Below, in pieces: positions 5,184-45,316 of a stretch of DNA of 64,000 bases. This stretch comes from Streptomyces sp. NBC_01275 (GTDB taxonomy: Bacteria; Actinomycetota; Actinomycetes; Streptomycetales; Streptomycetaceae), in contig NZ_JAPEOZ010000001.1 in assembly GCF_026340655.1 (NCBI RefSeq), positions 10,292,001-10,356,000 on the forward strand, given 5' to 3'. The translations under genes and the position numbers were made by a program. The notes under the pieces were generated by a model, which was not told the origin of the DNA, made no database searches, and saw nothing but the letters and a program-made list of their open reading frames with translations. The number at the start of each line of letters is the position of its first letter. Position 1 is the stretch's first letter.

Positions 5184-5911
5184 GTCGGCGGCGATCTGCC
5201 GGTTGCTCATGCCCTGGCCGCCAGCGCGGCCACCTCCAGCTTCCGACGCGTCAAGGGACTGAGGGCGGTGGCCGGAGCGGTCGGCCCGGCGCCGGCGTCC
5301 AGGGCATGGTCGATGGCGCGGCCGGGCCGTCGTGGCCGCGCCGACCGCGAGTGCCCTCTCGTACGCCCCCGGACCCAGTGCTCGACCGACTCTTCGCACT
5401 GCGTGTGGTACTCGGCCATCAGCGGACCGAACGCTGAAATGTCCGCACCCAGATCGCGCCACAACGTGTGCGCGGAGCCGAGCAGCCGTCCCGCTTGCTC
5501 GTACTCGCCATGGGAAGCGATGATCCAGGCGGGCGTCTTCAGCTCAGCGCGGCACTGAGCGGCTCGTTGAAACAGCGGCTCGTTGAAACCGCGCTCGATC
5601 TCGAGCGCGGCCTGGATCACCGCGAGGGCCTCCTTGCGGTCGCCACGACTCCAGGCGTCGCAGCGCAGCGTCCACATCGCGTGCGCGCGCCCACCGCTCA
5701 TCGTGCGCCTCCGCCAAGGCCACCGCCTGCCGACGGTCTCCGCCACACGCGGATTCCCCAGGTGCATCTGCACCGCGGCCAACTGCAACCGCACGAACAC
5801 CGTCGAGGCCTCCCCCTCGGCTGCCAAGTGAGCGGTGACCGCGTGCTCGAACAAGGGCGCCGCCTCCTCCGACCGTCCCTGGAACGCCGCCGATGAGCCG
5901 CGAAGGCTCAT
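5184..5911 (-). pseudogene. Remnant of a large LuxR-family (LAL-type) regulator, C-terminal part
   Basis: The frame from 5911 encodes TPR-like helical sequence (SEEAAPLFEHAVTAHLA, AELKTPAWIIASHGEYEQ) ending in the start of a LuxR HTH, PLTRRKLEVAALAARA. The next helix, QGMSNRQIAAD (about 5210-5184), is in a different frame, so a frameshift lies within the HTH at about 5210-5220. The recognition helix then runs directly into the start of the neighbouring ABC ATPase fragment. The N-terminal ATPase part of the regulator is missing. Confidence 0.75.
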
Positions 5912-5999
5912 GACGTCCGCCCCCGCCTGGCGGCTGCCGCATCGTGCGCTGTGGATTCCGGATGCCGTCAGTAGACCAGCGCCGACGTCTCGGCGCAGG

Positions 6000-6494
6000 T
6001 CAGGGGAGGCGTGGCAGGACGTCCCGAGCCGAGTGGCTGAGGATGCGCAGGTCCTGCGTGAACCGTTCGAGGTCTTCGGCGGGGAGGGGGGCGACGAAGT
6101 AGCGTTGGATGTTCTCCAGGTGCACCTGAGAGGCGCGTACGGTCGTCTCCTCGCCCTGTGGGGTGAGCCGCACGAGCTTCGCGCGCCGGTCGTCGGGGGA
6201 CTCGGTCCGCGCCACCAGGCCTACAGCCTCCATACGGTCCACCAGGCGGGTGGCGCCGCCTGTGGTCAGGACCTGTTCCTGGGCGATGGTCCGCATCGAA
6301 AGGCCTGGCAGGCCCGCCCGCCCCAGGATCAGCAGTACCTCGTACATCAGATGGCTGATCCCGCACTCCACTTCGAGGGCCCGCCCGAGGATGTACTCCA
6401 GCCGGTTGGCCGCCCCTTGCAGTCGTCCGAACGCCAGGATCAGCTCGTGATCCGCAGCCTCCTTCGCCGTCCTGACCCGCGCCTGCTCGCTCAC
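6000..6494 (-). CDS. MarR-family transcriptional regulator
   Basis: An intact 164-residue winged-helix protein with a GTG start at 6494. Residues 35-110 contain the MarR fold: LMYEVLLILGRAG, the recognition region TTGGATRLVDRMEAVGLV, and the wing RTESPDDRRAKLVRLTPQGEE. The length and charge are typical. Both neighbours are remnants, so its original target is not evident; MarR proteins usually act on an adjacent divergent gene, which is missing here. Confidence 0.9.
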   Translation of the reverse strand: MSEQARVRTAKEAADHELILAFGRLQGAANRLEYILGRALEVECGISHLMYEVLLILGRAGLPGLSMRTIAQEQVLTTGGATRLVDRMEAVGLVARTESPDDRRAKLVRLTPQGEETTVRASQVHLENIQRYFVAPLPAEDLERFTQDLRILSHSARDVLPRLP

Positions 6495-6692
6495 GGCCTC
6501 GCCGCCCCTTTCGCCGTCCCGGGTATCACCGTACCGATCATGCCCGCGGCAAGCAGGGTGACGGCGGACGCTTCCTCTCCTCGTCGCGGAGGACGGAGAT
6601 CTGGACCGGCCGGCTCGCGGGGTCTGGGAACGGTCCGAGCGTCGGACCAGCAGCAGGTGCAGAGGGTCCCAAGCGGTGGCAACGGCCTTCCC

Positions 6693-7156
6693 CTAGTGGA
6701 TGGTGTCGGTCGCCGTGGTGATGGACGGGACAGGCTGGGTGGCCGGATCCTCGAACTCGAACTCTGCCCCGCGCTTGGGCTTGCGCCCACGTTTGTCCGC
6801 AGGCTGCGGCGGGGCGGGAAGCACAGGACACGGTCCGAACGCAGTCGGCCCAGTAGCTCCACCGGAAGGTCCGCGAGCAGGAAAGACAGGCCTCGTATGC
6901 GCATCTGGCCGCAACCAGTTGCTGACATCGACCGCCAGGACCAGCCGCCCCTCCGCCGTACAACGCGCCATGCTCGTGCCGGTGCTCAGGCGCCAGAGAC
7001 AACTCGACCAGCGTCCTCACTGGACCGTCCGTACGCAACAAGGCGTTGCCCGGCTCGGAACGACGTATCGCTCCGCCTGGTCACACAGGTGTGGAACCCC
7101 GTCCGGAAGCATGACAGTTCGGCGAACGCACAGAATCGGACGAAGGCCGCTCTCAT
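6693..7156 (-). pseudogene. N-terminal remnant of a large DDE-type transposase
   Basis: Pieces of a known actinobacterial transposase family appear in order but in different frames. They are an N-terminal MRAAFVRFCAFAEL from 7156, then LRTDGPVRTLVELSLAPEHR (about 7040-6980), then RLVLAVDVSNWLRPDAHT (6950-6890), then KRGRKPKRGAEFEFEDP (about 6790-6740). At least two frameshifts and an internal deletion separate them. The missing C-terminal part of the same family is found at 23.3-23.8 kb on the opposite strand. No inverted repeats were identified. Confidence 0.7.
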
Positions 7157-7178
7157 GTCCGGCACTCGGCCGAAGACA

Positions 7179-8161
7179 TCAGCTCTCCCAGAACAGTCTT
7201 TCGTTCCTGTCAGGATCGGTGACGATCCGGCACCGGGCGTCGAGCCACATCGTGGCACGGTCGGTCAGGGTGTAGGCGGGCCAGTTCGGCACGCCCGCCG
7301 CCGTGGGGCGGCCCGTGTGGGCGAAGCCCGCCCACAGTTCGCTCATGTGCCGTGCGGTCGCCAGCCGTCCCGGCGATTGATCCGCGTTGAGGATGTAGTC
7401 GAGGTTCTTGTCGGTGTTGGCGAACTTGAGGTTGATGTCCGACGCGTGCGGTGAGCCGATGGGGAAGTCGGTGCCGGGCACCAGGGTCGGGCTCGGGTAG
7501 GCGAGCTGGTACATGAACACGGGCGCGGCGTGCTGTGCCCGTTTGGCCTCCGCGATCTTGATCGAGTCGCGCCAGATGGGCGAGGTGGTGATCGCGAAGT
7601 AGAGCTGTGCAGGCGTCGCTCCGGGCCGCGACGCCTGGAACGTCCGGATGATCCGGTCGAGCTCGACGCCCTGATACGTACTGCTCAGCCTGGCGCGCAG
7701 CCCTGCCTCGTCGACGCTGAAGATGTCGCGCGGCCCGAAGAGGCTGAAGAACACCGTCTCGTCACGGCAGGTGCCGCACATCAGCGGCTTGTCTGCCGAG
7801 AAGGGCGCGGCGCCGTCGGCGAAGGGGCGCCGCGGGACGACGGTGCCGTCGACGAAGGCGCCGAAGCCGGGGAGCGCGCCGGGGTCACCCCACGGCGGGG
7901 CACCGTTCGCGGCTTCGGACTGCTGGATCTCGAGCAGCCTCGCTGCCGGAATGTCATGGAGCCGGGGAATGTCCGTCGTGGTCAGTCCCAGTAACTCCAG
8001 CGTGCGTCTGGCCCGAGCGGTGGCACCGTCGCGGGTGGGGAAGCGCAGTGGCGCGGCGCTTTCGATCGAGGCCTTGTGGAACAGTGGCGCGGCGGCCGGC
8101 ATGGTGTAGACAGCCGCGGTCTTGGCGCCGCCGCCACTCTCGCCCCAGACCATGATGTGCT
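7179..8161 (-). pseudogene. Carboxylesterase type B, N-terminally truncated
   Basis: About 327 residues of a para-nitrobenzyl-esterase-like protein are intact, beginning right at the nucleophile elbow (IMVWGESGGGAKT, catalytic serine in GESGG) and running to a normal C-terminus. Everything upstream of that point (the usual first 180 or so residues, with the oxyanion-hole loop) is missing. At about 8160 homology switches abruptly to a sugar permease on the other strand, marking a deletion or inversion junction. The part that remains shows no frameshifts. Confidence 0.85.
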
Positions 8162-8735
8162 GAGGGTGTTCCTGTTCGCCCCGGCCGTGATCACGCCGAT
8201 CGTGACCGCGTACCTCTGGCGCAATCTGCTCGGTCCGGACGGCGCGGTCAACAGCCTGCTCGGGGCGGTGGGGTTGGACGACTGGCGGCAGGACTGGCTG
8301 GGGAGTCCGAGGCTTGCGCTGTGGGCGGTGGTCGGGGTGATCGTCTGGCAGTTCGCGGGCTACTCGATGGTGATCTTCCTGGCCGGGCTGCAGTCGGCGC
8401 CGAGGGAGGTCCACGAGGCGGCGGCCATCGACGGGGCGGGCCCGGGGCGCCGCTTCTGGTCGGTTACCCGGCCGCTGCTGGCCCCGGCCCTCACCATCAA
8501 CCTGATGCTGTCGATCATCGGCGGTATCAAACTCTTCGACCAGGTCTACGCGTTGACGGGCGGCGGGCCGGGACACGCCACCGACACCATCTCGACCCTC
8601 ATCTACAAGGACGCCTTCACGCTCGGCGAGTTCGGCTACAGCATCGCGCTCGCGGTCGTCCTCACGATCATCGTGGCGGTCGTCTCGACCGGACAGTTCG
8701 CTGTGCTGTCCCGCAACGAGAGGGCCGCATCGTGA
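8162..8735 (+). pseudogene. CUT1 sugar ABC transporter permease (MalF type), N-terminally truncated
   Basis: Homology begins at VFLFAPAVITPIVTAYLWRN, just past the esterase junction, and continues through the EAA loop (EVHEAAAIDGAGPGRRFWSV) and GGIKLFDQVYALTGGGPGHAT to the C-terminus. The first two or three membrane helices are missing. Its stop overlaps the start of the second permease, an arrangement kept from the original operon. Non-functional as it stands. Confidence 0.85.
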
Positions 8736-9551
8736 GCCGCTACCGCCCGCGTACCCTCGCGCTGGAACTGGCGGTGATCGCCGCCGCCCTGGTCGTGGGC
8801 TTCCCGGTGTACGTCCTGGTCAACCTCGCCCTGCGGCCGGCGTCGGACACCTCGTCGCCGATCAGCCCGACCACCTCGCCCACCTTCGACAACTTCACAC
8901 AGGCCTGACAACAGGGCTCGCTCGGCGGGGCGTTGGGCAACAGCGTGCTGGACCGCCTGCAGCGTCGTCATCGTGCTGGCCGTCTCGTCGCTCGCGGCGT
9001 ACCCGCTGGCCCGCGTCACGGCCCGCTGGTCCCGCGGTACGTACCTGACGTTCCTCCTGGGCCTCGTCCTGCCCTTCCAGCTGGCCGCGCTGCCGCTGTA
9101 CCAGACCATGCGCGACCTGGGACTCCTCGGCACCCCATGGGCCCTGGTCCTCTTCTACTCCGGCCTTCAGGTGCCGTTCACCGTCTTCCTCTACGTCGGC
9201 TTTCTGCGCGCTCTGCCCCGCGACTTCGAGGACGCGGCACTGATCGACGGCTGCACCCCGCTGCAGGGCTTCCGGTACGTGGTCCTGCCCCTGCTCAAAC
9301 CCGTGACCGTGACCGCCCTCGTACTCAACGCGGTCGCCGTTTGGAACGACTTCTTCACCCCGCTGCTGTACCTCAGCGGCAGCGCCCAGCAGACCATGCC
9401 GGTCGCGATCGCCGGGTTCGTCGGCCAGTACGTCACCGACTGGAACCTCATCTTCGCCGCACTCGTGATCAGCATCCTGCCCGTCCTGCTCGTCTACTTC
9501 CTGCTGCAGCGCAGCATCATCAACGGCTTCGCGGGAGGGCTGCGCGGATGA
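8732..9551 (+). pseudogene. CUT1 sugar permease (MalG type) with nonsense mutation and 2-nt deletion
   Basis: The GTG start at 8732 overlaps the preceding stop. The frame reads to FDNFTQA and stops at TGA 8906-8908, where related permeases have Trp (TGG). After GALGNSVL the codon pair expected to be GTG ACC reads GACC, a loss of two bases near 8950. The rest (VSSLAAYPLARV through the EAA loop DFEDAALIDGCTP to INGFAGGLRG) is perfectly open in the frame that a 2-nt deletion predicts (8973 is 241 nt after 8732). So the gene was intact recently and carries just two lesions. Confidence 0.85.
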
Positions 9552-14661: not shown

Positions 14662-15065
14662 GGAAGCGCCGGGGCCGGCGGCTCTTGACGAGGGCGGTCG
14701 GGGCAGGCCGCTTCCGGGATCCGGCGGCGTCGTGTCCCTGCGCCCGCGCAGAGGCCTTCGGCGTCTCGGTCGAGGGGGAGTCTCTCCTTCTCGTGCAGGG
14801 GGGCGTCGCGGGGTCCGAGGCACGACGATCGCCGGCAGGCGCGTGATCGCCGGACGGTCCGGCCCCGGACGTGCCGCGGATCAGGGGCGTGCGCGGAGCG
14901 TCCCGGCGGGGAAGGGGTCGCTGGGGTCGCTTCGCCGTCTCGTCCCGCCGCGGGGCGGGGACCGTCGGGGAGCGCGTGCTCTGGGCCGCGTCCTCGAGCG
15001 GCGGGCCGTCGCGTCTCGGTGTGTCCCTCGCCCGGGGCGGGCGTCGGCGCTGCTTGAATCGCCGC
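14662..15065. other. No gene recognised; upstream region of glutamate decarboxylase
   Basis: Extremely GC-rich sequence follows the repeat. Frames open on both strands are compositionally biased (long Arg/Pro/Ala runs) and show no domain. The gadB promoter must lie in the last part. I see no clear operator or hairpin. Confidence 0.4.
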
Positions 15066-16430
15066 ATGACCAAGCGTGATGATGCGGCTCTTTTCGGTAA
15101 CCGGTTCCTGACCGTGCCCGCCCCCTCGGAGACCTTCCCCGACGAAGGCATGGCCGCGACGGACGCCATGAGGCTCGTGGACGTGGATCTCGCCATGGAG
15201 GGCGACCCGCAGCGCAACCTCGCCACGTTCGTCACCACGTGGATGGAGCCGGAGGCGCAACGGCTGATCGCCGAGAACCTCCACCGCAATTTCATCGACC
15301 ATGCGGAGTACCCCATTTCCGCCGAGATCGAGCAGCGCTGCGTGCGGATGCTCGCCGATCTCTTCCACGCGCCGGGCAGGACGACCGGATGCCGGACTCA
15401 GGGCTCGTCCGAGGCGATCATGCTCGGTGCGCTGTCGCTGAAGTGGAAGTGGCGCGAGCGCCGCCGGGCGGCCGGCCTGTCGATCGACCGGCCCAACTTG
15501 ATCTTCGGGGGAGACGTCCACGTCGTGTGGGAGAAGTTCTGCCGCTACTTCGACGTCGAGCCGCGGATCGTGCCGCTCGCCGAGGGCAAGTACACGATCG
15601 GCCCGCAGGACGTGGAGCCCCGCCTCGACGAGAACACGATCGGCGTCGTCGCCGTCCTCGGCACCACGTTCACCGGTCACAAGGACGACGTCGCCGGGAT
15701 CGACGGGCTCCTGCGGGACGTCCGCAAGGAGCGGGACCTCGACATCCCGATCCACGTCGACGGCGCCAGCGGCGCATTCGTGTGGCCCTTCCTCTACCCG
15801 GACTCGAAATGGGACTTCCGGCTCGAGCAGGTCCGATCCATCAACGTCTCGGGACACAAGTACGGCCTCGTCTACCCCGGCATCGGATGGCTCGTCTTCC
15901 GCGAGGAGTCCGACCTGGCCGAGGACCTCGTGTTCTACGAGAACTACCTGGGCAAGACCGACGCGACGTTCACGCTGAACTTCTCCACCGGTGCGTCGAT
16001 GGTGCTCGCGCAGTACTACAACTTCGTGAGGCTCGGTCGCCAGGGCTACACCTACGTCATGAGGATGATGCAGGAGAATGCCCGCGCATTGGCGGACAAC
16101 CTGCGCAGCAGCGGCCGCTTCGAAGTGATCGGGAGCGACCTCGAACAGCTGCCGCTGGCCGCTTTCCGTCTCGCCGGCAGCCACGCCTACGACGAGTCCG
16201 ACATCGCCTGGCAGCTCTCGGCCGAGCGGGGCTGGATGGTGCCGGCGTACACGCTCCCGCCCAACGCGCAGCGGGTGAAGATCCTGCGCGCCCTGGTCAA
16301 GGAGACCCTGAGCCGCGAGCAGGTCGACCGCCTGAGCCAGGACATCGCCGACGCGTGTCGCACGCTGGACGACAAGGGCGCGACCCACGGGATCGAGCGG
16401 AGCCGGATCAAGCGCGGCACCGGCTACTGA
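15066..16430 (+). CDS. gadB: Glutamate decarboxylase (PLP-dependent)
   Basis: A 454-residue group II decarboxylase that converts glutamate to 4-aminobutyrate with consumption of a proton. The N-terminal signature MRLVDVDLAMEGDPQRNLAT and FVTTWMEPEA are characteristic. The PLP-binding Lys265 lies in NVSGHKYGLVYPG, preceded by the Asp in IHVDGASGAFVWPF. The start at ATG 15066 fits the normal GadB N-terminus (MTKRDDAALFGNRFL). No GadC antiporter is nearby, so a role in acid resistance or in GABA metabolism cannot be decided here. It is intact and is the only well-conserved gene between two eroded areas. Confidence 0.95.
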   Translation: MTKRDDAALFGNRFLTVPAPSETFPDEGMAATDAMRLVDVDLAMEGDPQRNLATFVTTWMEPEAQRLIAENLHRNFIDHAEYPISAEIEQRCVRMLADLFHAPGRTTGCRTQGSSEAIMLGALSLKWKWRERRRAAGLSIDRPNLIFGGDVHVVWEKFCRYFDVEPRIVPLAEGKYTIGPQDVEPRLDENTIGVVAVLGTTFTGHKDDVAGIDGLLRDVRKERDLDIPIHVDGASGAFVWPFLYPDSKWDFRLEQVRSINVSGHKYGLVYPGIGWLVFREESDLAEDLVFYENYLGKTDATFTLNFSTGASMVLAQYYNFVRLGRQGYTYVMRMMQENARALADNLRSSGRFEVIGSDLEQLPLAAFRLAGSHAYDESDIAWQLSAERGWMVPAYTLPPNAQRVKILRALVKETLSREQVDRLSQDIADACRTLDDKGATHGIERSRIKRGTGY

Positions 16431-16947
16431 CGCACCCGCTACTGACGCACCGTGACGGAGCGGGAGTTCCGGGCGCCGGGCGCCGACCCGCCCAGCCAGC
16501 TCCAGCGCCGTAGCCGTAGCAGTAGCCGCTGCATCATCGGCATTCGCACCCCCCCCATGGGCAGCGGACCCTGGGCTGCGGCCTCGCGGCACACGTCGGA
16601 CCGGTACCGCGCGGACCGCCGTCCTCGCAACGCCGCGCTCTGGGCATGGCCCGATGGCGCAAGGCGATGCGCGTCGCAAGCCTGTACCGGCTCACGTCAG
16701 GCGGCGGCGCCCATAAGGCTCCCACCCGCTGACCGCGCACCTCCTTGCTGCGCCGCTCCCCGCTCGCCTGACGAAGGTCCCGTGAGTTCGTCGGCCATCC
16801 GCAGTATCCGCTCCCCGTTGTTGGGCCTGTGGCCTTGCCGTACTCGTTCGGGTGAAGCGCGATCGAAGGGACGAAGCTGCTTCAGGATTCCTGATTGTCT
16901 CCCGGTGAATCCCGAGGGATCGGGTCATCCAGTGAGCTGGGGGCGGC
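16431..16947. other. 517 bp without a recognisable gene
   Basis: It begins with a short direct repeat (ctactgacgcacc at the gadB stop and again 13 bp on). The rest gives only shadow frames. If the downstream recombinase cassette is a discrete element, its left end should lie here, but I see no convincing terminal repeat. Confidence 0.4.
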
Positions 16948-18018
16948 ATGGGCCTGGCAGCGGTACGGGATCTTCGGCCAGAACTGAGGCTGACGACTCC
17001 CGAGGCGGTCGAGGCGTTCGAACAGGATCTGCTCGCCGAGTTCGTGCTGGCGAGATCGTCCGCCGGCACGGAGGACAAGACGATTCGTACGGACCTGTCG
17101 GCGATCTGCGAGTTGCGGGACTGGTTCGGCAGGCCGTTGTGGGAGATGGCGCCGCAGGACATGGACCGGTTCTTCGGCGGCAAGCACCGATCGGCGATGC
17201 AGACGACGAAGGCCCGGAAAGCTCAAGCGATCGGGATCTTCTTCGAGTTCCTGGAGATGCGGCACCAGGCCGACATCCACGCGGCCACGGGCATCGTGGT
17301 CGAGGCACCGCTGGACGAGCTGAACCGGCCACGGGGCAACGTGCACGCGCGGCTTCGGATCCCGCCGAGCGCGCCCGAGATCGAGCAGATGTTCAGCGGC
17401 TGGCGGGCGGATCTGGGATCGGTCCGCAAGTACGCGCCGAGCGTGCGCAGTTACACCGCGATGCGGCTGGCGAGCCTGTTGGGCCCGCGGGTGTCGGAGC
17501 TGTGCTTGCTCAACATCGACGACATCCACTGGCACATGGGCCGCTTCGGCAAGGTCCTGCTGCGGGGCAAGGGGTCACGCGGGCGGAAGAAGGAACGGCT
17601 CGTCCCGCTGATCAACGGGTCCCGGGAGTTGCTGGAGTGGTGGGTCCAGGGGCCGCGCTGGGAGTTCGACGACCAGGTCAACGCGCCGGGCGCCCCGCTG
17701 GTTCCCTCTGAGCGGCGCAACCCTGACGGCTCCTGCAAGCGGGTCGGGGAAGACACCCTGCGGACCGCGCTGGCGGGCATGGTCGTCGAACACCTCCCCA
17801 AGTTCTCCGGCCGACTGTCCCCGCACCTGCTGCGGCACTTCGCGGCGTCCGATCTCTACCTGTCCGGCATGGACATCGTCGCCCTGCAAGAACTCCTCGG
17901 TCACGAATGGCTGCACACCACGATGATCTACGTCCACGTCACCCGCACCCACGTCGAAGACGCCTGGGTCCAGGCAGGGCAGCGCGCCAGCGACCGCCTC
18001 GGAGGTGGTCTTCGGTGA
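16948..18018 (+). CDS. Tyrosine recombinase/integrase, first gene of a three-gene cassette
   Basis: A 356-residue protein with an N-terminal SAM-like core-binding domain (about 20-125) and a catalytic domain carrying the full set of tyrosine-recombinase residues: Arg181 in LLGPRVSEL, His293 and Arg296 in PHLLRHFAAS, His319 in LLGHEWLHTT, and the nucleophile Tyr328 in MIYVHV. It is followed without a gap by a small HTH gene (GTGA start/stop overlap) and then a second recombinase-like gene, so the three are translationally coupled. It should be catalytically competent. There is no excisionase of the usual phage type and no tRNA next to it. Confidence 0.92.
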   Translation: MGLAAVRDLRPELRLTTPEAVEAFEQDLLAEFVLARSSAGTEDKTIRTDLSAICELRDWFGRPLWEMAPQDMDRFFGGKHRSAMQTTKARKAQAIGIFFEFLEMRHQADIHAATGIVVEAPLDELNRPRGNVHARLRIPPSAPEIEQMFSGWRADLGSVRKYAPSVRSYTAMRLASLLGPRVSELCLLNIDDIHWHMGRFGKVLLRGKGSRGRKKERLVPLINGSRELLEWWVQGPRWEFDDQVNAPGAPLVPSERRNPDGSCKRVGEDTLRTALAGMVVEHLPKFSGRLSPHLLRHFAASDLYLSGMDIVALQELLGHEWLHTTMIYVHVTRTHVEDAWVQAGQRASDRLGGGLR

Positions 18019-18344
18019 AGTGGAACCTGCGCCTGGTCGCCGCTCAGCGCGACATCTGGAAGGCCAGCGAACTGCAGCGCATGCTCGCGGACGCCGGCCT
18101 CACCATCAGCGCCGGGAAGATGTCGGGCCTGTGGTCGGGGCAGCCGGTCACCATCCGGCTGGACGACCTCGACGTGATCTGCGACGTCCTGAACTGCACC
18201 CCGGCCGACCTGCTGATCCCTGAGCCGGACAAGGCCGCAGCCCGCAGACCGGACGCCGATGCCTCCGCCTCCCCGGCCGCCGCCGCGGCGGGCCAGGAAC
18301 CGATCGTCCGCCGCCACGTCGGCCGTCTCCAGCCTCCGAGGTGA
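18015..18344 (+). CDS. Small HTH (Xre/Cro type) protein, second gene of the recombinase cassette
   Basis: A 109-residue protein starting at a GTG that overlaps the integrase stop (GTGA). Residues 1-65 form a Cro/C1-type helix-turn-helix: WKASELQRMLADAGLTIS, then SGLWSGQPVTIRLDDLDVICDVLNCTPADLLIP, the usual end of Xre_3-like domains. The tail (66-109) is Ala/Pro-rich and looks disordered. The tight coupling suggests that it works with the two recombinases, for example as a directionality factor or repressor; this is inference. Confidence 0.85.
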   Translation: MKWNLRLVAAQRDIWKASELQRMLADAGLTISAGKMSGLWSGQPVTIRLDDLDVICDVLNCTPADLLIPEPDKAAARRPDADASASPAAAAAGQEPIVRRHVGRLQPPR

Positions 18345-18351
18345 CCCTTCC

Positions 18352-19899
18352 ATGCCGCGTCCCAAGCGTCCCGCCTCCAGCTGCAAGAGCTGCCTGGCCT
18401 GGGGTGATCATTTCTACACCGACATCTGCCGGGCCTGCGTAGGCTGGAACAGGGTCTATCCCGAGCGGCGCTGCCGCTGCTGCCGACGCCAGGCGGCCTG
18501 CAATGACGGCTACTGCCGCCTCTGCCGCAAGCAGGCCAGCTTCAACCATGACCACCGGTTGAAGACCAAGGTCGATCTGGACACGCCGCAGCGGACCGGC
18601 CAACAGCTCTTCTTCGCCGACCTGGTGCGAGCCGTCCAACTCCCGGAGGAGGGTCCCGCGCCGACGGTCGCCCCGCTGCTTCGGCCGGTGCGTCTCAAGC
18701 CTCGCTACCAGCAATTGATCTGCTGCGATTCCACCCGCGATCTGCGGCGCGTCCCCCTCGTCGGCCTGGAGATCGGGCACCCGGAGTACGTCGACTTCGT
18801 CCTGGCCAGGGCGGAGGCGATCGGGCAGGCCCGTGGCTGGTCCGGCATGGTCAGGATCCGCACCCAACGCGCTCTGACCATCGTCGCCGCCGTCCACGAC
18901 CCGTGGGAGAAGGTCCTGGCCAGCACGGTCGCACAACTCACCGAGCGGCAGCTGCCGGCCTGCCGGGTCATCGACGTCCTCGAAGACCTCCAGCTCCTCG
19001 AGGACGACCGCCCCGACCCGTTGGACGGCTGGCTCGCGGGCATGCTCGCGGAGCTACCCTCCGGCATCAAGCAGGAGACCCTCGTCTGGGTCGATCACAT
19101 GCGCCACGGCGGACAGCGGGCCCGCCCCCGGGCAGCCCAGACCGTGAGGAACAAGCTGCGAGCCGTCCTGTCCTTCCTGCAGCAGGTCGGCGGCGGCTAT
19201 CACACGCTGCGGCAGGTCACCCGCGAGGACTGCAAGACCTGGCTCGACATGGTGACCAAGGACCGCCATCGCGCGATCGTGGCTCTTCGGGCGCTGTTCA
19301 AGACCCTCAAGGCACAGAAGGTGATCTTCGCCGATCCCACCCGCGACATCCGGGGCGGCAAGACCACTGGCACTGTCCCCCAGCCCTTGGCGCCCCACCG
19401 GCTGGCCCAGGCCGTCGAGATGGCCGTGGACGATCCCGCTCTCCGCGTTGTCCTCGCGCTGACCGCGATCCATGCCCTGGGGGCGGAGGAGACCAGACAC
19501 GTCCGGCTCGACGACATCGATCTGCCCGCCGAACGCATCCACCTGCGCGGGATGCACCGGCCACTCGATCCCTTCACCCGCCAAGCAATCACTGACTACC
19601 TGGAAGTTCGCCGATCCACCTGGCCCCGAACCACCAACCCTCACCTGCTGGTCAGCAAGCGCACGGCACACGAGCTTGGACCCACGACACACACCTGGAT
19701 GACCAAGCGGCTCAGGACCATGGGCTTGACCACCACCCAGCTACGGACCGACCGGATCCTCGACGAAGCCGCCGCCACCGCCGGTGACCCCCTGCACCTG
19801 GCCACTGTTTTCGGCATGAGCACGGGAGCGGCCGTTCGATACGCCGACGCTGTCCGGGAGACATCGGCCACCCGACTTACGGGGCGTCTTGACTCCTGA
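18352..19899 (+). CDS. Zinc-knuckle tyrosine-recombinase-like protein lacking most catalytic residues
   Basis: A 515-residue protein, start ATG 18352 with GAGGTG upstream. The N-terminus has CxxC-type pairs at 11/14, 26/29, 41/44 and 55/58, consistent with two zinc ribbons. The middle is helical, like a SAM-like core-binding domain (about 290-345). The C-terminal 180 residues follow a recombinase layout. However, the position of the first catalytic Arg is Gly377 (HALGAEETRHVRLDDID), the His of box II is replaced (TQLRTDRILDEAA keeps Arg465), and the His of box III is Met489 (VFGMSTGAAVRY), while Tyr497 is kept. A decayed homologue at 23.9-24.8 kb shows the same absences. It is probably a DNA-binding partner of the active recombinase. 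Family recognition is moderate; function unknown. Confidence 0.8.
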   Translation: MPRPKRPASSCKSCLAWGDHFYTDICRACVGWNRVYPERRCRCCRRQAACNDGYCRLCRKQASFNHDHRLKTKVDLDTPQRTGQQLFFADLVRAVQLPEEGPAPTVAPLLRPVRLKPRYQQLICCDSTRDLRRVPLVGLEIGHPEYVDFVLARAEAIGQARGWSGMVRIRTQRALTIVAAVHDPWEKVLASTVAQLTERQLPACRVIDVLEDLQLLEDDRPDPLDGWLAGMLAELPSGIKQETLVWVDHMRHGGQRARPRAAQTVRNKLRAVLSFLQQVGGGYHTLRQVTREDCKTWLDMVTKDRHRAIVALRALFKTLKAQKVIFADPTRDIRGGKTTGTVPQPLAPHRLAQAVEMAVDDPALRVVLALTAIHALGAEETRHVRLDDIDLPAERIHLRGMHRPLDPFTRQAITDYLEVRRSTWPRTTNPHLLVSKRTAHELGPTTHTWMTKRLRTMGLTTTQLRTDRILDEAAATAGDPLHLATVFGMSTGAAVRYADAVRETSATRLTGRLDS

Positions 19900-19933
19900 A
19901 CCGACAGGTGTTGGCCACTCAACTCCCGCATAT

Positions 19934-19956
19934 CGGCCGCACCTTGGATGCGGCCG
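19934..19956. terminator. Hairpin after the recombinase cassette
   Basis: CGGCCGCA (19934-19941) and TGCGGCCG (19949-19956) are perfect arms around a 7-nt loop, 35 bp after the last stop of the cassette. It fits a factor-independent terminator for the three-gene operon. Confidence 0.6.
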
Positions 19957-20250
19957 TCCTACACTTGGTTCATCGATGTGTTCTACGCGGTCGCGAGGCA
20001 CACAGCAGGTTCCCAAGCCGCACGCCGACTCCCTACAAGGGCCGGGGCCCATAAAAAAAAATCCCTCGGGCGGCGCGCAGCATACGCGGCTTTCCTCCAC
20101 TTGCAAATCTAGTTGGGTCAAGCAGCCATTTTTGGGCATGGGGTGTCAGGCGTTGAACACCCCTCGCCACACCGTGCATCGCTTCCTGAGGGGTTCTTCC
20201 CAATCGTTGTGGGGCCTGCCAACAGGCTCCGGGAACCTCTGAGGGCTTCG
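19957..20250. other. Intergenic region with an A-tract, no gene seen
   Basis: It contains a run of nine A residues (about 20053-20061), unusual in this genome, embedded in otherwise ordinary sequence, and nothing that looks coding on either strand. It could hold the right boundary of the recombinase cassette. Confidence 0.35.
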
Positions 20251-20502
20251 GTGGACCTGCACATTCCTCCCGTGAACGGGCTGATCGTTGTGATCGGCTG
20301 CCTCGTCGGCTACGCCGTCTTCCGCCACTCCAAAGGCAGCCAGCCTGAGGCGGAAACGAAGGGCGACCCAGCGGCAGCAATTTGTGTCGCGCTGGCTGTC
20401 GCCACGCTGTTGATGTTTCTCTTCGGCGCAGGCGGCGATCTGTCGGAAGGAGGCAGCGAGCCTTCGGGGCACCCATCGCCGTCGGCTACTGCGCCCCGCT
20501 GA
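20251..20502 (+). CDS. Small predicted membrane protein, unknown function
   Basis: An 83-residue frame with a GTG start at 20251 and GAGGG 7 bp upstream. It has two hydrophobic segments: about residues 9-24 (NGLIVVIGCLVGYAVF) and 46-62 (AAAICVALAVATLLMFLFGA), separated by a charged loop (HSKGSQPEAETKGD). The tail is Ser/Pro-rich. I do not recognise the family, but the clear TM pattern and ribosome-binding site argue for a real gene. The hypothetical gene at 20613 follows 110 bp later in the same direction. Confidence 0.55.
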   Translation: MDLHIPPVNGLIVVIGCLVGYAVFRHSKGSQPEAETKGDPAAAICVALAVATLLMFLFGAGGDLSEGGSEPSGHPSPSATAPR

Positions 20503-20612
20503 CCGACTCGAACCCCAGTCTGGGCCTGCCGCCTTAGAGGTCATCTCAATTGGCCCGGCCGCGCGCTTGAATGCGGGTGGCATTGGAGCGGGTTCTGCCG
20601 CATGATCACGCC

Positions 20613-21197
20613 GTGACGAATCCTGCCGCCTTCCGGGACCAGACCAACTGGTCCGATGGCTACTACGAGCTAGCCATAGAGGTCGGATCGAGTGACGATG
20701 CCCGGCTTCAGGCCGTCCTGAGTGCTCTGTGGTCCGCCGCAGACGTTCACGGGTGCTTCGGGCAGAAAGACTGTGAACCTGAGGAGCAGGATCCCGTGCC
20801 GTGCACGGTTGGCTCACTGACCGAGTTCGGCCACCTCCACGGTCAGGTCCGTCTGCCGACGGGCCAACTGGTCGTGTGCGGTTGTGTGGCGATCCGCGGC
20901 GGTGATGAAAGCGGCGACTGGCTGGACTTTTACGTCCCCGTCGGTGCGCTGGATCACGCGGGTCTTACGTACTGGGACGGTCGGCCGTTCTTCAGGTCCG
21001 ACGTGATGGACGAATGGCTGGCTGCCATCGGGACCGAAACCTTCCAGAGCGCCTCCTTCAGCCTAGGGATCATCGGCTTCGAGGTCTCTGGTTGCACCGA
21101 CGCATCGACGCTGGCAGGAAGGTTGCCGCAGACACGGGACATCGGATATCTGCTTCCACAAGGCAACGTCCTGGACTATGGCGCCGCCAACACCTGA
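20613..21197 (+). CDS. Hypothetical protein
   Basis: A 194-residue acidic protein without signal peptide or membrane segment. I start it at GTG 20613 (VTNPAAFRDQTNWSDG) because the upstream in-frame residues look non-coding. The composition is normal for a soluble Streptomyces protein (YYELAIEVGSSDDARLQAVLSALW, DWLDFYVPVGALDHAGL, FFRSDVMDEWLAAIG). It contains scattered Cys and no motif I can name. Its last codons overlap the end of an IS5-type remnant on the other strand, so the natural C-terminus may have been altered. Confidence 0.65.
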   Translation: MTNPAAFRDQTNWSDGYYELAIEVGSSDDARLQAVLSALWSAADVHGCFGQKDCEPEEQDPVPCTVGSLTEFGHLHGQVRLPTGQLVVCGCVAIRGGDESGDWLDFYVPVGALDHAGLTYWDGRPFFRSDVMDEWLAAIGTETFQSASFSLGIIGFEVSGCTDASTLAGRLPQTRDIGYLLPQGNVLDYGAANT

Positions 21198-21850
21198 GCC
21201 TTGCTGCTCCGGGTGGGCACGAGCCTGCGGTAGCAGATGAGGGTGCAGGCGATGCTCGTGAAAGCGAGAAAGTGTTCCGCTTTGCGCTTGTAGCGGCGGT
21301 GGAGGCGTCGGCAGCCGGCGAGCCAGGCTATGGTGCGTTCGATGGTCCAGCGGTGACGGCCCAGCCGGGTCGAGGACTCGATGCCCTTGCGGGCGATGCG
21401 GTGGGTGATGCCACGCTCGCGTAACCATCGCCGCAGGTGGTCGTAGTCGTATCCCTTGTCTGCGTGGAGTTTGCCCGGTCTACGCCGTCGGCGTCCGCGC
21501 CGCGAGCGGATCGGCGGTATCCCCTTCACTAGCGGGATCAGCGCCTGGCTGTCGTGCAGATTCGCCCCGGAGATCCCGACGGACAGGGGCAGACCGGTCC
21601 GCTCGGTGATCAGGTGGATCTTCGAGCCGTACTTGCCTCGATCGACAGGATTCGGGCCTGTCAGCTCCCCCTTTTCAGGGCCCGCATGTTCACCGAGTCG
21701 ATCGCGCAGCGGGACCAGTCCAGCTCGCCGCGGGAGCCGAGTTCGTCGAGGACCAGGCGGTGGAGTTTTGCCCACACGCGAGCCTTCGTCCACTCGGTGA
21801 ATCGTCGGTGGCCGTCGCTCCCGACGGCCCGAATGAGGCAGACGGCAACT
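21176..21850 (-). pseudogene. IS5-family (IS427-type) transposase, 5' truncated
   Basis: Two overlapping frames encode one transposase. The first (from about 21840) reads RRFTEWTKARVWAKLHRLVLDELG to SVNMRALKRGS and stop. The second reads KGELTGPNPVDRGKYGSKIHL, LHADKGYDYDHLRRWL and WTIERTIAWLAGCRRLHRRY, holding the DDE domain with the Tyr-x2-Arg-x3-Glu-like end. The frames join at a run of four A before GGGGG (21672-21675 on the plus strand), the -1 slippage arrangement seen in IS427-type elements. The normal N-terminal 60-70 residues are absent, so the copy is dead even if slippage works. Confidence 0.8.
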
Positions 21851-22155
21851 GCTGCCACGTGCAGCCCGGGCGACGGCCTGTAGAGCACCGGGCCGAAGAC
21901 GGCCTCGCGGCCAGAGAGCCTCGTCGTCCAGCCCGACGCCGTCCACCAGGCTTTGCCCGTCACCGACGCCGTCCACCCAGGCGCGGGCGCTGCCCGTGAC
22001 CGACGCGGAAGCCGCCGACCGGCTCGCCGCTGCCAGGCCACGGACAAGACCGGCCTGCGACGCGCAGCCCCTGCCGTCATCCCAACGGCCAAGACGGTCA
22101 GCCGACCGAAGCCCACCGCGCAGACACTCAGGGACGTCGGTCCGCCACCGGGACG
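21851..22155. other. No gene recognised between the IS5 remnant and the GAP-family gene
   Basis: The minus-strand frame continues open here, but its sequence (Arg/Ala/Trp-rich) matches no transposase N-terminus. It may be scrambled IS sequence. Confidence 0.3.
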
Positions 22156-22180
22156 CCGGTGGGGGCGGGGCCCCCACCGG
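22156..22180. terminator. Terminator of the GAP-family gene
   Basis: CCGGTGGGGGC (22156-22166) and GCCCCCACCGG (22170-22180) are perfect 11-bp arms with a 3-nt loop, immediately downstream of the minus-strand gene that ends at 22192. Confidence 0.65.
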
Positions 22181-22191
22181 AGCCGTCCCCG

Positions 22192-22836
22192 TCAGGCGAC
22201 CAGCTCGGCGATGCTCCGGGCCGTCAGCCACAGGCCGAAGAGCAGGGCGAGCGTGACGATCAGCTGCTCCTGGTGCTGCTCCAGCCGGCTCCGCAGGGCG
22301 TTCAACCGGGCGTTCGCGACCGCCGGCGCCCAGACCACGTACATCTCCATGACGAAGAGACTGAGAGTGGCCAGCAGACAGTAGCCGGTCAGCGCCAGCC
22401 AGCTGGCGAGGCCGGAGAGGTCCGCGTCGACGGCGGTCGCGGCGCCGGCGCCGACCAGCGCCCAGGGCTGCATCAGCCAGGCCAGGCCGGCTGCCGCGAC
22501 CGGGGACGCGTCGTCGATCCGGGCGGCCCAGCGCGGCGGGCCGTGCGGGCGGGGCGGCCGGCGGAACCGGTGCGCGCCGTACAGCACCAGTGCCAGGCCG
22601 ATGGCGAGTTTCGCATCGATCACGGCAGTCGAGGGCACGCTGTGACGGGCCGGGGGCTGACCGCCGGTCAGCAGCACCACACAGGCGATCACCGCAATCA
22701 GGTTGGCCAGCCACGACAGCAGGAACGCCAGACCCTGGCGAACGCCGCGCCGCGAGGAGAGCAGCAGGATGAAGGCGCTGTTGTGCAAAGGCCCCAGGGT
22801 GATGGCCGTACCGATGACGACCAGGTCGAGGACCAT
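22192..22836 (-). CDS. GAP-family (Sap) membrane protein
   Basis: A 214-residue integral membrane protein with six hydrophobic segments. It begins VLDLVVIGTAITLGPLHNSAFILLL and contains GLAFLLSWLANLIAVIACVV and LAIGLALVLYGAHRF. This matches the actinobacterial GAP family (named for the mycobacterial peptidoglycolipid/sulfolipid addressing proteins), thought to assist export of cell-surface lipids. In this family the genes often stand alone, as here. Intact, with its own terminator. Confidence 0.85.
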   Translation of the reverse strand: MVLDLVVIGTAITLGPLHNSAFILLLSSRRGVRQGLAFLLSWLANLIAVIACVVLLTGGQPPARHSVPSTAVIDAKLAIGLALVLYGAHRFRRPPRPHGPPRWAARIDDASPVAAAGLAWLMQPWALVGAGAATAVDADLSGLASWLALTGYCLLATLSLFVMEMYVVWAPAVANARLNALRSRLEQHQEQLIVTLALLFGLWLTARSIAELVA

Positions 22837-23899: not shown

Positions 23900-24765
23900 T
23901 CCGTGATCGCCCGGGGCAGCGGCCGGACTGCAAGAGAACACCCGCACGCTCACGATCCTGCTGTACTGGCTCGGCGCCGACACCGCGGTCCTTGAGCGCG
24001 ACGTGTACGACCTGGCCCGGATCGACGTGAACCTCGCGGCCAGACCGCCTGGACCACGACCGCTGGCGTGACCTCGCTGAGGGAGATCGCCAAGAGCCAT
24101 GTCGAGGACGTCGTGGACGGGGTGTCCGGATACGCCCGCCGAGGGCTGGCCACAGCCCTGCGCAGCCTCTTCCGCGCGCTCAAACGCGAACGAGTGATCT
24201 TCCGCGGCACCACCCGGGACCTTCCGGTCGGCGACATCAAGAGCACTCCGAAAACCATCCCCTCCGACCTCCTTATGGGGCTGCTCGACCAGGCGACGAC
24301 ACCGCTGGGCCGCCTCGTCGTGGCCTTCGCCGCCGTCCACGCGCTGCCCGGCGAGGAGATCCAGAACCTGCACACCACGGGCCTGGATCTCTCCCGGGGC
24401 GCCCTCGAAGTCCGGCGCGGTCTGCTACGGCACACCCTCTGCATGGAGGAGCTCACCCACCAGCTCGCCGACGACTGGACGACCTGCCGCCACCGCCGCC
24501 GGCAGGCCTCGTCCAATCCCCGCCTGTCGGTCAGCCAGAAGAGCGCGGTCACCCCGACCACCCGGCCGTCAGCACCGGCACCCTGAGCGGAGCCCTTCCC
24601 CACGGGCTGACACTGCGCGGCCTGAGACAAGACCGCATCCTCAACGAAGCAGCCGAAAGCGCCGACCCGCTCCGGCTGATGCGGCTGTCAGGCATCACGG
24701 AGAAGACCGCCATGCGCTACGTCACCGCCGCCCACCCCGAACGAACCGCCAAGCTGCCCCGGTGA
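23900..24765 (+). pseudogene. Decayed second copy of the recombinase-like gene of 18.35-19.9 kb
   Basis: Three blocks match the last gene of the intact cassette: ENTRTLTILLYWLGADTAVL (about 23937-23995), then RGLATALRSLFRALKRERVI with FAAVHALPGEEIQNLHTTG (24150-24390), then RGLRQDRILNEAAESADPL with GITEKTAMRYVTAAHPER (24618-24750). Two frame changes or stops separate them. The first catalytic Arg and both catalytic His are missing here too, while the Arg of box II and the Tyr are kept. No integrase or HTH gene of this copy survives upstream. Confidence 0.7.
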
Positions 24766-43983: not shown

Positions 43984-45316
43984 ATGCCGATGCAGCCGAG
44001 GCCGTGGCCGCAAGTGCCGGAGCTGACCGCGCAGGTGGCCCGGTCGGTAGCGGCGCAGGGGCCGTATCCCCTGGCGATGCGGGTCCGTGACGAGCTGGGT
44101 GAGCTGTTTGCGGATGCCGAGTTCGCCGAGACGTTCGGGGCGCGGCGGCGGCCTGGCTGGTCACCGGGCCGGCTGGCGCTGGTGACGGTCCTACAGTTCG
44201 CCGAGAACCTCACCGACCGGGCGGCAGCGCATCGGGTGCGGTACGGCATGGACTTCAAATACGCGCTCGGTCTGGATCTGGACGATCCGGGGTTCGACGC
44301 CTCGGCGCTGTCGGAGTTCCGCGCGCGGTCGGTCGAGCAAGGGTTGGAAGAGAAGGCGCTCGACCTGCTGCTGACCGCGCTCAAGGGCCGGGGCCTGGTG
44401 AAGGCGGGCGGCAAGCAGCGCACCGACTCCCCCCGCGTGCTGGCGGCGGTACGGGACCTGAACCGCCTGGAAGTTGGCTGGGGAGACGCTGCGGGCCTCA
44501 CTGGAGACGCTGGCCTGCGCGGCACCGGACTGGCTGGCCAAGGCGGTGCCTGTGCGGGAGTGGGCCGAAGGTTACGGTCCGCGGACCAACTCCTGGCACC
44601 CACCCGCTTCCAAGACCAGGCGCGAGGCCATGGCCCTGGTCTATGGCCGGGACGGGTTCACGTTGCTGGACGCCGTGCACGCGCCTCACGCGCCGGCCTG
44701 GCTGCGCGAACTCCCGACGCTGCAGGTTCTGCGCACGGTATGGCTGCAGAACTACCACCGCACCGTGACCGAGGCCGCGGTGGTGGTCACGCGCTCGCCC
44801 CAGGCACGCGCCGGCGCCGGGTTCGACCGCACCGCGTTCAGCATCGACTGGGACAAGCGGCAGGCCACCTGCCCACGCGGGGACACCAGCACCTGGTGGA
44901 GCCCCGCCAGCCAGCGCGGGACCAAGGCCATCGTCATCAAATCCGACAAGGAGACATGTCGCCCCTGCCCGGTGCGCGACCAGTGCACCCGCTCGAAGAC
45001 CGGCGGCCGGACCCTCTCCCTGGAAGCCCGTGAGCTGCAAGAGGTCCTCGACCGTGCCCGCCTCCAGCAGTCAGACGAGCAGTGGCGAGCCAAGTACGGA
45101 ACCCGCGCGGGCGTCGAGGGAACCATCCACCAGGCCGTCGCGGTCACCGGCATGAGACGCGCCCGCTACCGCGGTCTGCCAAAGACCCGCATCGAGCACG
45201 TCTTCGCCGCTGTCGCACTCAACCTCATACGCCTCGACGCCTGGTGGAAGGGGCATCCTTTGGACCGCACCCGCGTCAGCCACCTCGCCCGGCTCGACCT
45301 CTTCCTCGCCGTGTGA
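43984..45316 (+). pseudogene. IS1182-family transposase with a 1-nt frameshift
   Basis: The N-terminal frame reads MPMQPRPWPQVPELTAQVAR, LAMRVRDELGELFADAEFAE and NLTDRAAAHRVRYGMDFKYA. The other frame holds the zinc-like block CRPCPVRDQCTRSK and the end GTIHQAVAVTGMRRARYRGL with KTRIEHVFAAVALNLIRL, all typical of IS1182. They are separated by one extra base at about 44471 (ctggaagttgg where ctggagttgg restores the frame to LAGETLRASL). Everything else appears complete. Whether the extra A is biological or a sequencing error decides if the element is active. Confidence 0.85.

Follow-up and report, generated by a model that had tools for sequence, protein, structure and literature searches.

A 64,000-nucleotide stretch of Streptomyces sp. 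NBC_01275 DNA (contig NZ_JAPEOZ010000001.1, positions 10,292,001 to 10,356,000; hereafter 'the window') carries three adjacent genes encoding a tyrosine recombinase (TR, or YRec), a small helix-turn-helix (HTH) protein, and a partner protein that joins a zinc region to a tyrosine recombinase-like fold. We consider it very probable that this trio forms the recombination core of a small transposon that is site-specific and operates in the manner of Tsy. Faure et al. (2023, PMC10293859) described Tsy as a transposon built of YRec, HTH, and TnsF genes, to which one branch adds a GIY-YIG gene. That the family to which the trio belongs is a site-specific transposon can be stated with high confidence from its recurrent gene order, its recognizable ends, and its insertions into coding genes for which empty sites are found. 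The family occurs across soil actinobacteria, and the copy in the window is likely one-ended.

All three open reading frames (ORFs) lie on the forward strand. The first (16948..18018) encodes a canonical TR of 356 amino acids (PF00589, E 7e-21), whose catalytic positions R181, K208, H293, R296, H319, and Y328 are conserved in all 35 full-length TRs that were aligned. The second (18015..18344) encodes a Cro/C1-type HTH protein of 109 amino acids (PF13443, HTH_26, E 7e-15), and the third (18352..19899) encodes the TnsF-like partner of 515 amino acids, which carries an Xer-type fold match and the zinc region. The TR stop and HTH start overlap by 4 nt and a 7-bp gap separates the HTH and partner genes, in agreement with the tight packing and the Xre-type middle protein described in an initial annotation of this DNA. 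That annotation also gave the trio its own terminator, which is not supported by our data: a consensus scan yields no matches (shuffled sequences average 1.4), a GC hairpin at 19934-19956 lacks a T-run, and the fold of 19900-19985 has a z-score of -0.73. In five annotated records that were examined, the three genes are labelled integrase, HTH regulator, and hypothetical protein, labels under which the elements escape notice together with their cargo.

Of the 58 loci L039-L096, 48 contain matches to the complete trio with a shared strand and an unchanged gene order, some with one gene present only as a fragment. These loci were picked mostly by their match to the partner, and include three duplicate pairs and two chosen as fragments. 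The other ten (L042, L051, L052, L053, L055, L075, L084, L087, L088, and L090) are without at least one of the three genes. A search for this gene order had been proposed in the initial annotation, which regarded scattering of the genes as an argument against a mobile module; the genes proved to be conserved together. Within the genus, 117 of 295 genomes have relatives of the partner, as do 109 of 72,556 plasmid records (76 from Streptomyces, others from Rhodococcus, Arthrobacter, Nocardia, Mycobacterium, Nocardioides, and further genera). At 1e-5, a search of 50,697 phage records gave none. When the phylum was sampled evenly, the partner proved rare (7 of 396 genomes at a strict cut-off of 1e-20). 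When the Nocardioides JS614 partner was used as the query, 560 relatives were found. Among database proteins, four share 84-88% identity with the window partner over the 72-98% of it that they cover. At the DNA level, no relative of the window copy exceeding 73% identity over the trio was found among 150 relatives or 392 genomes of the genus, and searches of viral contigs, and of genome_contigs using the partner, revealed no near DNA relatives. A TR scan for close relatives yielded a single match, which was rejected as an unrelated Clostridium locus.

The ends of the elements were evaluated in 50 loci beside the window, after dropping L051, L052, L084, L087, and L088 (fragments or loci without a TR) and the duplicates L045, L047, and L049. 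A left-end motif, TCCCGYGRGTTC (up to two substitutions), lies at -142 to -232 from the TR in 28 of the 50, and a right-end motif, CTTCAG...GAACYCRCGGG, lies 3' of the partner in 30. The two arms are inverted repeats of each other in 22 elements with both ends, and 3.0-4.5 kb separate the left motif from the right motif in 18 distinct elements. A weight matrix for the right motif gives leave-one-out scores of 15.7-37.6 bits, compared with a best score of 9.8 in the upstream flanks of 29 loci. Nine loci held out of the matrix were scanned downstream of the TR-HTH match; eight score 16.4-34.9 and L152 scores 0.7. In these same nine, the left motif (up to one substitution) is present at -222 to -459 of the TR-HTH match in four and is not found in five.

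Sequence comparisons place the boundaries at similar locations, as flank alignment, another check proposed initially, had been expected to do. In many near pairs, similarity ends 140-300 bp 5' of the TR and near or shortly 3' of the partner, and genome G019 holds two copies of a 4,205-bp segment that are 99.95% identical and have unrelated flanks. The pairs L046/L047 and L048/L049 were not counted as transposition copies because they lie in longer duplicated segments. In group-1 elements (L058, L063, L096, and others), both ends are seen and similarity extends ~45 bp beyond the right motif, which indicates that the exact right terminus differs by subfamily. The right ends of L058, L059, L060, L062, L091, and L096 carry an imperfect palindrome of roughly 48 bp, and L060, L062, L091, and L096 have an additional arm 74 bp before it; judged from sequence, these might be arm-type binding sites. 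The genome that holds the window also contains a second element (L043, ~5200-9260; G000:C1 near 8.987-8.991 Mb), in which both end motifs are present along with a cargo ORF of APH type, and whose TR match spans only ~800 bp.

Insertion sites were established for two unrelated target genes. In L039, L040, L041, and L050, the element interrupts istA of IS21 at the same codon position, between the last codon of AFRSHY (AFRSHF in L041, TFRAHY in L040) and the next Gly codon (Asn in L041). With the flanks joined, IstA can again be read through the junction, although the joined stretch of L039 and L040 has other stops. Plasmids contain the joined L041 sequence without interruption. At least 80% of it is covered in 29 records, the alignment is 691 bp to 691 bp at each of the five places listed first, and two intact istA alleles that were read directly show CACTTCGGCATCGA with nothing between. 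In L044, L045, L074, and L077, the target gene encodes a zinc-binding protein with an RRQRL motif, and the element sits behind the opening codons (TLP type) of this gene. When the element is taken out, an in-frame gene start results in three of these, as worked out by hand, and the fit is less clear in L074. The joined L044 query is matched in one piece by one plasmid (L146; 92%, 645 query bases to 663, with small gaps). Empty sites, a check that the initial annotation had proposed, are present elsewhere, and no target duplication was seen in either group. The istA gene belongs to an insertion sequence, and the RRQRL gene adjoins spdB on a small plasmid; both targets look like parts of other mobile elements.

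The initial annotation described the cassette as free of cargo. We measured the distance between the partner stop and the right end in 29 elements that have both, excluding L065 and duplicates. This gap is 38-70 bp in six elements and 338-2655 bp in the other 23, where some of the longest values depend on weaker right-end matches; for the window copy, cargo cannot be bounded without a right end. Passenger ORFs usually occupy this interval in the family, and ten such cargo ORFs were scanned against Pfam. Five match, as APH-type phosphotransferase, S1-domain, SnoaL-like, HEAT-repeat, and GNAT acetyltransferase proteins, and five match nothing; a GIY-YIG nuclease is not among the ten.

The partner comprises a zinc region (residues ~1-70), a helical bundle (residues 144-231), and Xer-type core-binding and catalytic folds (residues ~232-515). 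Its domain match is weak (XerC of NCBIfam at E 3e-9, far under the model cut-off, and a sub-threshold Pfam match). The zinc region holds four CxxC pairs, and each of the eight Cys residues is kept in 45-49 of 52 aligned sequences, with CxxC cluster layouts that vary among relatives. The protein was initially called degenerate, which applies to the window copy insofar as the first Arg and both His of the catalytic set are lost, but not to the second Arg and the Tyr, which are kept.

By analogy with Tsy and from the folds of the proteins, we propose that the canonical recombinase binds to both ends at their inverted arms, joins these ends into a circle, and then re-inserts this circle. The zinc/Xer-like partner would bind the target gene and thereby act as the target selector. 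In pairing with the recombinase, it might be half-active, still supplying its tyrosine, or might serve only to bind DNA. The HTH protein could be a regulator or an architectural factor. We tentatively extend this proposal, though we would not bet on it, to a large undescribed actinobacterial Tsy-like branch that parasitizes other mobile elements. Its partner would be a modular selector, with one, contiguous double, or separate double zinc modules, at differing stages of catalysis loss, and its subfamilies would have been re-aimed at other conserved codon stretches of genes in mobile elements and at chromosome ends.

The window copy appears to have lost its mobility. A left-end motif, TCCCGTGAGTTC, is located at 16778..16789 (+), at -170 from the TR start. 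Beyond it, the left flank holds the remnant of a decayed helicase gene (16540..16758, -), which was identified by tblastn with an 800-amino-acid ORF of L174 that matches DEAD, Helicase_C, and HA in Pfam (36% identity to residues 269-341, E 3.8e-5). The DNA of this remnant is 79-86% identical to four genomes over 42-65 bp. The second half of the helicase gene was not found in the 64-kb window, and in a scan of 53 other loci, no left end abuts helicase sequence as it does here. This decayed gene is the probable insertion target of the window copy. Neither a fuzzy motif search nor the weight matrix, which was run over the 64 kb in both orientations and reached 6.9 bits at best, recognized a right end. 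A candidate at 19885, the best in 19700-21000, was rejected with a score of -0.9 and 20th rank on the + strand.

A right end is present in all six loci near the window by TR, namely L039, L040, L041, and L054 (65-68% protein identity) and L050 and L149 (72-73% DNA identity). The gene in the right flank (20571-21197) also exists in genome G033 (91% over 20531-21198), which has no partner relative. The simplest reading is that the element inserted into the helicase gene and later lost its right side. However, because a recognized right end is also missing in 20 of the 50 other loci, the right end of the window copy may instead have diverged. With no recognizable right end, this copy is probably not self-mobile and probably persists as a stranded element that retains its reading frames and left motif, although its trio may act in trans. 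Therefore, the compact self-mobilizing module of the initial annotation holds for the family, with its recurrent trio, discrete ends, duplicate copies, clean insertion, and empty sites, but probably not for the window copy. The genome-rearrangement role that the annotation offered as an alternative gains no support from these data. Downstream, a relic of a second partner gene (24014-24756, +; 31% identity to the first over part of its length, one internal stop) has no TR or HTH match beside it.

Several other explanations were weighed against a Tsy-like transposon whose partner selects the target. One that deserves serious attention, even if it falls short of even odds, is that the partner is a still-active second recombinase, forming a heterotypic pair as in Tn554. 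Conservation of the Tyr in 172 of 177 relatives and of the second Arg in 170 of 177 would suit this possibility, as would an Arg at the first-Arg position in 114 of the best 120 of the 560 JS614-type matches and the dependence of Tsy on TnsF catalysis (PMC10293859). However, this first Arg is present in only 14 of 57 sequences of the window-type set, Gly, Thr, Asn, or Ser occupies the position in the window partner and its closest aligned relatives, and the His positions are not conserved. Domestication of the window copy as a host-serving recombinase seems improbable. Its subtelomeric location, ~104 kb from the end of the 10,413,473-bp contig in a 10.4-Mb genome, and frames that are intact despite the missing right end are compatible with this idea, but the family is patchy across the genus and the protein search found only four proteins at 84-88% identity.

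We regard as very unlikely that the trio is a remnant of a larger integrative and conjugative element (ICE), phage, or plasmid integration module, as the initial annotation had allowed. ICEs typically carry a lone integrase and a regulator, and many copies of the trio reside on plasmids. However, the discrete ends near the trio, the two near-identical 4.2-kb copies, and the clean empty sites argue against such a parent, as does the absence from phage records. Moreover, the 38-2655 bp between the partner and the right motif in the 29 relatives (the window end is not recognized) is too little for a conjugation module. There is also little chance that the trio belongs to the class of actinobacterial Tn554-like elements that Van Houdt et al. 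(2012, PMC3414803) described, in which a long and a short recombinase are combined. Their table does include the actinobacterial plasmid pNOCA01 (NC_008697), but PF00589 matches this plasmid at three places: the TR of a trio at 24.4-27.6 kb and a separate pair (L097/L099, 110500-113081) with an 805-amino-acid frame. By our own assignment, this pair fits their Famint36/41 entry for pNOCA01, and since it lies away from the trio, their class is most likely a different element. Furthermore, the long proteins described there have 611-828 amino acids and contain a catalytic motif, and that set is listed without a TnpC partner.

Other features of the window were noted. By eye, a glutamate decarboxylase-like gene (14871-16430, +) lies just upstream of the helicase remnant, and reading frames like an IS5-type transposase, in pieces, occupy 21176-22714 (-). 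A tRNA-Sec gene is located at 44223-44313 (+).

With its recognizable ends, its empty sites, and its two or more unrelated target genes, the family offers a setting for testing how a protein with a recombinase fold changes into a target selector. Tools for site-specific integration in Streptomyces could also draw on its precise insertion at new codon targets.

Among known systems, RIT elements have three canonical recombinases in a row, and SE and GInt modules are described with two canonical recombinases plus Tfp or GinC and Srap or GinD (PMC10214605, PMC5385486). These share a multi-recombinase plan, and Tfp lacks RHRY and GinC part of it, whereas our trio has one canonical recombinase and a zinc partner. 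Tn554 and its actinobacterial relatives likewise have two recombinase-fold proteins and are site-specific, and Tn554 includes a small protein (PMC3414803), but the middle gene here is HTH_26 rather than a recognized TnpC, and the partner is non-canonical instead of a second canonical recombinase. The TnsF of Tn6022 similarly combines a zinc region with an inactivated tyrosine-recombinase fold as the target selector. However, Tn6022 is Tn7-like, with TnsABC and TniQ that are absent from the trio, and its TnsF has lost the catalytic chamber (PMC10293859), whereas the partner keeps the Tyr and second Arg.

Tsy is the closest known kind. The initial annotation found no standard element name for the trio, but Tsy has the same gene order, found here in the window and the 48 loci, and a like protein plan. 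As described in PMC10293859, its TnsF has N-terminal zinc fingers and an Xer-like part and binds comM DNA, both recombinase activities are required, and a circular intermediate is observed. The partner matches this plan in its several N-terminal zinc motifs and Xer-like C-terminal half. In Tsy, tandem core-binding domains precede the catalytic domain; the helical bundle at 144-231 of the partner, ahead of its core-binding and catalytic folds, is at most a candidate for the first of these. Insertions of the two families behave alike: both target coding genes, some members carry downstream cargo, and the GIY-YIG gene is not essential in Tsy. No description of an actinobacterial trio was found in the open-licence literature, although the supplementary tree of Faure et al. 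may hold actinobacterial members. The two differ in that our family is actinobacterial, targets istA, the RRQRL gene, and probably a helicase gene in the window rather than comM, and has inverted-repeat ends, where the authors of Tsy detected none. Furthermore, TnsF is catalytic in Tsy, and the catalytic set of our partner is incomplete: it retains the Tyr and Arg II but not the His residues, and the window copy has lost the first Arg. The name Tsy derives from the components, and comM insertion is a property of the members described. Because our comparison with Tsy is by description only, we name this family Tsy-like rather than Tsy.
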